DNA from: Alligator mississippiensis
Taxonomy: Eukaryota; Chordata; Crocodylia; Alligatoridae
Assembly: GCF_030867095.1 (NCBI RefSeq)
Contig: NC_081835.1
Coordinates: 19,662,501-19,726,500 of the forward strand
Direction: 5' to 3'
DNA: 64,000 bases
The position numbers and the translations under genes are program-made. Below the pieces are notes generated by a model. It had not been told where the DNA came from. It saw nothing but the letters and a program-made list of their open reading frames with translations, and did no database searches. The first letter of the stretch is position 1. Each line of letters begins with the position of its first letter. Shown piece by piece: positions 31,201-34,200 of the stretch.

Positions 31201-34200
31201 ATCCCAGCATTAGATCATTAATGCTGGTCTCTTCCCTTTCCCGCCTCCCCTGCAACCAGTCCCAGTAAAATGGCCCCCAAATGGCTAAAAGATTTGGGCA
31301 CTATAAATCACATGGTTCTGAAAAAAAATATATTTATTATTCTTAGCATTTTACTCATTATTTGTGGAGGAGAGTGTATTAGAAATTTCAAAACAGCGAG
31401 CATGACTGGCATGCCTTGCCTATAGAAACTCTCTAAAGCTTTTAGAGTCAGGAAACAGATACACAAAGTTTCCTTATCTTTAACGTACAGATATCCGGAT
31501 AGGAAACTACTACCAGGAGCTTAGAAAGGACATTTTTTTTAATCACTCAAATGAAAATAAAAAGTATAGGTGACTCCATGGAAAAATAATAGGATTTTTT
31601 TTTTTTTTAAAACATCAGGGGATTGTCTGAGGAGGGAACCAATATTAATATTGTTAGGGACTATAAGAGTAAATCTTACTTCATGGCCTTTAAACAAATA
31701 ATTATTAAGTAGGGAGCAGTGGCTTTGACTCCTATTTTCTTTTCTTTTTGTTTTGTTTTTTTGGGTTGGGATTTCTGTTTAATCCCAACATGTTGGAGGG
31801 TATTCATGCCCGTAACCCTTTCAATTCCGGTACATTTCTGAACTGTCCCAAGAGGCCAAATATAAGAGAAATGAAATCAAGGCTGTCATCGGAGGTTAAA
31901 GTTAGGCATTCATAAGGAGAAAGAGAGACTTGTTGTCCTGCACATTTTCCATCAGGAATGAAGTCTAGGAATATAAGCTAGCTTGCAAGCCTGCCCACAT
32001 TCTATACCTTGGCATGTAACTGCTATGGGTGGAGTCCCTGAAATCTGCCCTGAGGCTTTGCTGTGACCTCTGAGTGACATGAATCTCCTGTACAGTACAT
32101 CTAGAATCCATACAGGGTCTGAAGCAAAGGAGAGGAGACACATTATGCCTGTCTGTGTGTGGTCCCTTTGCACAATTTATCCCCAAGCCCAGCAAAGACA
32201 GAGACACCTACCAGTCTTCGTTTAGGTTTAATAAGAGGTCGGTTTTGACCGTTCATTTTGTGGTAGAGCCCGCAGGCGTTACACAGGTAATGCCCAGTGC
32301 CGTCTCTTCTCCAGAGAGGGGTGGCAGTAGCTCCACAGTTCACACACTCTCTGCCTTCTAAATGGAAACACGAAGAAACCGGATTTCTTTCTTTAAAAAC
32401 AAATTCACAAGAGCTTTTTGCATTGTCCTTTAGGCATCTTCCAGAAGTCAAAACAGTGTGTTATTCAAGCTTAATCAGACAGCAGTGACATCTACAGCAC
32501 ATGCAACAAGGGTCTAACGTTGCCCAGCACACCCAGCCTCTGACTAGCAATTTATGCCATCAGAAATGGGCCGCTCTCTCGGCAAGGTGAGAAAGAGTGA
32601 CACTCTTATTGTGTCAAATGGAACTTCTCATTTCAGTAACAAGAACTGCCTTCCTCTGTGCTGAGCGCAGTCCCTCATCCCCTCTCCATTGTACCTCTGC
32701 AGTAAGATCAGATGTTGTACTGCCACACACATTTGCTCTCTCTCGCGCGCACACACACACAAAGCAAGCAGTTTGAAGGTGTGGGGGAGGGAAAGAATTG
32801 TCTGGAATTGAATACAAGGCAGAAAGACCCCCCCCCCAATCTCCCTCCCTTCTCGATACATTTTTGTTCTAATACAAAAAGAAAAAAAATTAAGCAAGCC
32901 AGTTTGGAACTGGAACCAGAAAATAAATGGCTCAGGAATTATTTTATGTTAATAGCATAAAGCTGTTTGAAGTGCAGCTGGACTTTATTTTGAGAAACAG
33001 GTTCCCCCCCCCTCCCTTTTTTTTCATGCTTTACTTTTTAACAGTATAATTTGGGCAGGGGGCGGTTGGCCTGTTACTATTTCCTTATTAAGTCTTTGCT
33101 GAGCAGCAGAACTGCACGCAGAGCGGCCCAACTAGACCAGAACACACAGCTCCTTAGATAGAGGCTAGCTTCTGCCTCAGAAAGCTATTTACTGCAAGTT
33201 CACTGGCCTCTGATGGTTCCAGGGCAGGTCTGCTTAATATAGGAAATTCACTTAATATAGTTTATGCAAATGGTACAGTATTTAGCTGCAGAGGAAATTC
33301 TCTTTTGCTATTAACTGGAGCCGGCCACGCTAAGTTCAGCAGGGCTTGTGTCTCCTTTAATCTAGGGAGTGGGTGGCTTTCAAACAACACAGTCTGCAGT
33401 GAAAAATGAGGGGAGCTCTGCAGAGCTGCGTTCCTAGCTTTTGTCCCTCCTAGGGCAGGAAGCTGCAGGAGTCGTCGTGTCGTGAGTCTTAGTTTTCCTA
33501 CAAAAACACTGAGTGGTCACGAACTTTCCCTAGTTCCATACACAGGGGGCTCCCTTAAAAAAAAATCCCTCATTTCCCCCATCTAATAAAACCCTGGGCA
33601 GCTCAGGGGGAGAAAAAAAAAAAAAGAGAAAGAAAGGGAAAAAAAAAGCCATTAAGGATCCATTTATCTGCCGTTGACTGCTGTGTTTAGGAGCTGTTTC
33701 CAAAAGCAGAAGGCTGGGGTGCTAATTGTAATTGAATTTTCTTTTGAGTGTTTTTAAAAAACCAAACCAAAACCCCAAAACAAAATGAAAACAAGAACAG
33801 GGAATATTGGAGGGGGGAGTATATATTTTTCCTTCCTAAAAAGGGTCATCTGAAATGGGAGCTGATGAAGTTGTAAAATAGATGATATTTTTGTTGCACA
33901 GCACATAAAAGAGATCAGGTTTCTGAATTACTGGCTGAATGACTGGGGGGTTTTTTAAAGAGGTGTTTTTTCTGTGTGCATATATATGTATTTATATATG
34001 AAATACATAAATATATGAACCATCTACAGCTAGCTGGCTGGCTGGATACACCTATATAAATATGCCCACAAAGATATATCCCTTTTTTTTTTTTAAAAAG
34101 CCTCTCAAGACTGTCCCACTACACAGGATTGATTTTCCCTTCACCTCTGAGAATGGAAAACAAGGACAATTATTAGAAATTCTCAGCACTTCCTTTCCCG

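Follow-up and report, generated by a model that had tools for sequence, protein, structure and literature searches.

The +9.5 enhancer of GATA2 is a non-coding element that helps to make mammalian blood stem cells, and small changes in it lead to human blood disease. The question raised by the locus analysed here is whether a short block in the corresponding intron of Alligator mississippiensis is the crocodilian counterpart of this enhancer, and what is to be made of its E-box, which begins with T. All positions refer to the window, i.e. the whole 64 kb stretch of alligator DNA that was analysed. Globin exons of the same genome likewise suggest an alligator or a near relative: an alpha exon reaches 153.7 bits with 8wix_A and 113.9 with the next ordinary chain (six engineered tandem chains total 195–201, each being hit twice), and a beta exon shares 75 of 76 residues with 8wix_B, the last residue probably stemming from read-through into the intron. 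8WIX is the haemoglobin of the alligator (PMC11294572). Another exon of beta type (L032) had its best matches with other chains, 8wix being absent from the 60 matches listed.

GATA2 and the intron between its finger exons

Frames on the minus strand of the window encode a GATA2-like start (ATG at 36130), an N-finger, a C-finger and a C-terminal part. Reading frame and splice sites place the N-finger exon at 32212..32357 (start counted by hand) and the C-finger exon at 29093..29218 (end counted by hand), and between them lies an intron of 2,993 bp (29219..32211), which according to its sequence is of the GT...AG type. Queried with 48 residues of the N-finger, the alligator genome gave 15 matches, one of 100% in the window and 14 of 98% or less elsewhere; the 98% match, on C4, reads ATSTPLW. 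We take the gene in the window to be GATA2 and not GATA3, judging from the sequences known for these proteins and from the C4 copy. Four matches to Ribophorin I (RPN1) are found at C12:19,806,519-19,810,368, which is 80–84 kb beyond the window and on the minus strand like GATA2 itself; RPN1 beside GATA2 is also the human gene order. The sequence-only reading had assigned the block to GATA2 and to the intron between the finger exons, and frames, splice sites, the fully matching N-finger and the nearby RPN1 all bear this out. The block thus sits where the +9.5 enhancer (i4 in zebrafish) is expected, its first E-box base being at +719 from the donor of the inter-finger intron. No matches were obtained in the 64 kb window with Rfam (at the gathering threshold) or in a scan for tRNAs.

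Composition and rarity of the intronic block

The block (31450..31493) reads, on the gene strand (minus) from 31493 to 31450, TATCTG-N8-AGATAAGGAA...TTTCCT, and is 44 bp long from the first T through the end of TTTCCT, as is the human unit in print (PMC10613526). TATCTG (31488..31493) is an E-box-like site in which T replaces C while the GATA-proximal CTG half is intact. It is separated by an 8 bp spacer, TACGTTAA, from AGATAA (31474..31479), a WGATAR site, and directly after AGATAA, starting at 31473 on the minus strand, comes a GGAA, the core of an ETS-type AGGAAA (31469..31474) overlapping the GATA site at its end. The block closes with TTTCCT (31450..31455), again a core of ETS type, which reads AGGAAA on the opposite strand, and a further TTTCCT of this kind (31501..31506, likewise AGGAAA when read on the opposite strand) is found upstream of the block, so that three GGAA cores fall within 57 bp. 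The cores at 31469..31474 and 31501..31506 come from a motif scan of the intron, while the remaining sites were read directly and agree in order and spacing with what had been noted at first sight. A WGATAR site, an ETS core and an E-box-like site are thereby united in one 44 bp unit, which is the layout of the enhancer, and TG-TACGTTAA-AGATAA places a TG 8 bp upstream of a WGATAA, the spacing of partial E-box/GATA composites. Searched against the whole assembly, a 181 bp sequence containing the block matches once, with no second genomic copy or haplotype there.

Nothing comparable was found elsewhere in the intron. It contains 7 WGATAR and 7 CANNTG sites, and within its 2,993 bp no CANNTG lies 5–14 bp from any WGATAR in either order; a canonical composite with a full CANNTG is thus absent from the intron, the E-box of the block itself reading TATCTG. 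TG-N7-8-WGATAA occurs twice in the intron, in the block and at 29755-29741, while the longer CTG-N7-8-WGATA is found, within the intron, in the block only, and a rival composite as good as the block was not seen there. An intact CATCTG-N8-AGATAA elsewhere in the intron, which had been named as an observation that would speak against the proposal, was searched for and is absent from the entire 64 kb window, intron included. A second TATCTG lies at 31456..31461 (31462-31457 had been given, which is off by one), and it had been suggested to compensate for the altered E-box. This we do not uphold, as it lies 12 bp past AGATAA on the other side, without the geometry of a composite, and the intron contains no CTG-N7-8-WGATA in the opposite orientation.

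The inter-finger introns of paralogues were compared in five regions, one of which (L025) ends before its C-finger. Composites of other spacing or orientation occur in four of the five, from which we draw no conclusion: L025 has CAGCTG-N6-AGATAA on the gene strand, L026 (GATA6-type) CATCTG-N7-AGATAA on the opposite strand and L023 CATTTG-N10-AGATAG, also on the opposite strand. In L022 (GATA3-type), CAGCTG-N8-AGATAA at 2170-2189 on the gene strand combines a full E-box with the spacing of the block, which may be due to chance. The 25 bases following each of these paralogue composites contain no TTTCC at N18 (L022 has TCTCC).

TATCTG-N8-AGATAA is found 594 times in the 2.346 Gb genome (292+302; 251 for the reversed-pattern control), from which 0.0004 occurrences would be expected on one strand of the 2,993 bp intron, and in the 64 kb window it occurs once. 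When 20,000 introns were simulated from the dinucleotide frequencies of the real one, 176 (0.9%) held CATCTG-N8-AGATAA with at most one mismatch on the gene strand, and two held the form extended by N18-TTTCC, again with at most one mismatch; as the N18-TTTCC offset was set with the window already known, the figure of 2/20,000 is partly post hoc and serves as support rather than as a formal test. The real intron differs from either form at one position. The genomic excess of CATCTG-N8-AGATAA (874 vs 129 for the reversed control) was considered as evidence of selection and rejected, as several of the matches listed read CATCTGTAAAATGGAGATAA or nearly so. We assume CATCTGTAAAATGGAGATAA to be part of the MIR repeat, and raw counts of this motif mislead because several copies among the matches listed look like that repeat.

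Relation to the mammalian and zebrafish enhancers

The letters of the mammalian element, which we take to be CATCTG for the E-box and AGATAA for the GATA site, agree with the block in AGATAA and differ from it at the first E-box base (C in mammals, T in the alligator). The +9.5/i4 enhancer is known as a conserved vertebrate block of 150–168 bp. With the mouse and human elements (PMC5663362, PMC10613526) the alligator block shares the gene, the intron and an ETS core, and its 44 bp equal the E-box/GATA/Ets unit printed for human; spacing and order are kept, as the sequence-only reading had held. Two human variants, c.1017+513_1017+540del and c.1017+572C>T, fall in the corresponding intron of GATA2 (PMC9291163). 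According to PMC5663362 the deletion removes the E-box and the substitution destroys the ETS motif, whereas a table in PMC9291163 calls the deletion “del ETS site”. The E-box deletion, which also takes out the CTG half, abolished reporter induction in a lymphatic endothelial assay (PMC5663362).

If the human 44 bp end one base past c.1017+572, the human E-box would start about 530 bp past the donor. Its distance from the N-finger exon, given in the sequence-only reading as about that of mammals, is then similar in the alligator but not equal (+719 vs about +530). On the same reckoning, from the variant names and the length of 44 bp, GATA and ETS sites in human would be 18 bp apart, and the human ETS cytosine would be at offset 42, which is the offset of the second C in the alligator TTTCCT (31450..31455), so that this core probably occupies the place of the ETS site hit by c.1017+572C>T. 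That substitution is classed among CpG changes (PMC9291163); the alligator lacks this CpG and reads TTTCCT.

In zebrafish the i4 enhancer, described as the counterpart of +9.5, drives gata2a in endothelium (PMC7018942). It resembles the alligator block in its intron and in its set of E-box, GATA and Ets sites. With respect to GATA, however, the zebrafish E-box does not stand where the mammalian one does, its spacer being about 9 bp, whereas the alligator E-box is in the mammalian place but incomplete. The E-box had been called lost. While its first base is indeed T, it is not wholly lost, as the GATA-proximal CTG-N8-AGATAA is intact; moreover, “lost” assumes an ancestral C, which need not have been present, given that the position of the zebrafish i4 E-box differs from that of mammals (PMC7018942).

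An incomplete E-box is no oddity among sites bound by GATA1 and TAL1. In mouse erythroid cells (not endothelium), PMC4702602 describes about 10,000 GATA1 and 15,000 TAL1 locations, of which about 4,000 are common to both, and about three quarters of the common ones are associated with a partial E-box that precedes WGATAA by 7 or 8 bp; a TG at 7–9 bp is present in 1,650 of the 2,997 top co-occupied WGATAA sites. The exact CANNTG is the most abundant single form in these ChIP-exo data, yet it makes up a minority of the TAL1-GATA1 composites. In the model favoured by that study the E protein occupies the partial E-box, and TAL1, for which no sequence specificity could be detected, is its partner on the distal side. 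The alligator TG-N8-AGATAA is of this TG-N7-8-WGATAA type. Its E-box begins with TA, whereas MA or BG predominate at positions 1–2 (as a tendency, not a requirement), although the A at position 2 does fit, A or G being found there in about half of the sites (PMC4702602). Because of this partial E-box rule, and of the placement of the zebrafish E-box (PMC7018942), the base difference is less surprising than the sequence-only reading took it to be.

We thus favour, with a probability of roughly 0.68, the interpretation of the block as the +9.5 autoregulatory enhancer of crocodilian GATA2, orthologous to the mammalian element and to zebrafish i4 and carrying a partial E-box. This is concluded from place and grammar rather than from alignment, and is supported by the GATA2 exons and intron, the neighbouring RPN1, the rarity of the motif, the agreement with the human 44 bp unit and the lack of a rival composite, and also by the human E-box deletion and ETS change, which map to the corresponding intron. 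The TG-N7-8-WGATAA core of TAL1-GATA1 sites (PMC4702602) and the apparent retention of the mouse -1.8 site, described below, speak for it too. The non-canonical E-box, the TA at its positions 1–2 and the different distance from the donor count against it, as do the erythroid origin of the occupancy data (PMC4702602) and the abolished reporter induction of the human E-box deletion (PMC5663362), although CTG goes with that deletion as well.

It is very unlikely that the T reflects a minor allele or a fault of the assembly: there is a single assembly with a single copy of the block, which would leave room for this, but the base itself lies outside a homopolymer, and chromosome-scale assemblies seldom contain single-base errors. 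There is also only a slight chance that the motif is fortuitous, with the true +9.5 orthologue lost or located in another place. Nearly one in a hundred simulated introns does reach one mismatch to the 12-base core, and a pattern of this kind was being sought when the block was first noticed, but the intron holds no other composite, and both length and ETS site agree with the printed human element (PMC10613526). That the E-box of the orthologue has moved, as in zebrafish, for example to the CATTTG at 31553-31548, 60 bp upstream of TATCTG, is very improbable too. The position of the E-box does vary between zebrafish and mammals, but zebrafish retains a spacer of about 9 bp (PMC7018942), whereas no CANNTG in the alligator intron comes within 5–14 bp of a WGATAR in either order.

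More deserving of attention, although we still consider it unlikely, is an orthologue that has lost its bHLH input and runs on GATA and the three ETS cores, possibly with a new inverted GATA-like half-site. The T at the first E-box base, the three GGAA cores inside 57 bp and a TA outside the preferred MA/BG classes (PMC4702602) would all be in keeping with such a loss, as would the change of the other-strand CAGATG into CAGATA by C->T. However, the new half-site would read AGATAT, which is not a WGATAR, and the retained CTG, at exactly 8 bp from AGATAA, is left unexplained if the sequence was free to drift.

For the favoured orthologue with a partial E-box, a way of working can be proposed by analogy with the studies in mouse, human and zebrafish. 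GATA2 or GATA1 on AGATAA would bring in LMO2, LDB1, TAL1 and an E protein. The last of these would contact CTG, the GATA-proximal half at 8 bp from AGATAA, and TAL1 would lie over the outer half of the E-box with little base specificity. ETS factors may occupy the nearby GGAA cores, and the assembled factors would keep GATA2 transcribed in haemogenic endothelium and blood progenitors. The likeliest state of the block is one in which its bHLH contact would be active, perhaps weaker, and held by the GATA and ETS sites.

As the first letter differs while order and spacing are kept, the block suggests that half of an E-box may suffice, and we regard this probable orthologue as a useful natural variant of a well-known enhancer, not as a case of a lost E-box. 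The human deletion confounds two needs, that for a full E-box and that for the GATA-proximal half only, which the alligator variant separates. If the reading with an E-box word lacking the C is true, blood stem cells of the crocodilian lineage would emerge without need of the outer E-box half, and the locus would amount to a natural experiment, by a single base, on the grammar of this enhancer, the loss of which leads to human GATA2 deficiency.

Sites upstream of the gene

The word ATCTG-N8-AGATAAGGAA occurs 19 times in the 2.346 Gb genome (10+9; 8 for the reversed control), and two of these copies are in the window, both on the gene strand. The second, at 48221-48243 (-), is upstream of GATA2 and reads AATCTG, so that here, too, the E-box starts with a base other than C. 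From the genome density 0.0005 further copies would be expected in 64 kb; the window-shuffle control is less extreme, with a mean of 0.21 at up to 2 mismatches in 100 shuffles and 4 shuffles having at least 2, while both real copies are exact. A common origin of the two sites was considered and rejected: ungapped, they agree in 23 of 44 positions, 15 of these being the searched word, and they look independent.

The second copy lies within a cluster of five WGATAR sites (48114-48338), one of several such groups in the window. At 47220-47206, 1,023 bp from that copy, the gene strand has an inverted GATA pair, TGATAAGAATTATCT, which agrees with the palindromic GATA site at -1.8 of mouse Gata2 (PMC2936534) in 13 of 15 bases, with both GATA motifs intact and the two central bases different. 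Matches at this level are expected 0.11 times in the window by chance and were found in 10 of 100 shuffles. This site, upstream of the gene and outside the intron finding, is likely to be the homologue of mouse -1.8, judging by its sequence; as it seems to have been kept, Gata2 control sites can survive at such an evolutionary distance. As the mouse -1.8 and -2.8 elements are nominally 1.0 kb apart, the WGATAR group at 48114-48338 is a candidate -2.8 element. We suggest, tentatively and as something less probable than the orthology of the intronic block, that crocodilian GATA2 autoregulation might use the C-less half-E-box/GATA/GGAA word in both the +9.5 orthologue and an upstream -2.8-like element.

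Further upstream, a 217-residue open frame at 56647-57297 (-) looks like the reverse-transcriptase end of what we presume to be a CR1-type element. A region of about 12 kb (34501-46500), mainly GC-rich and CpG-rich, covers the 5' half of GATA2; for the mouse Gata2 locus, four CpG islands are described (PMC2936534).
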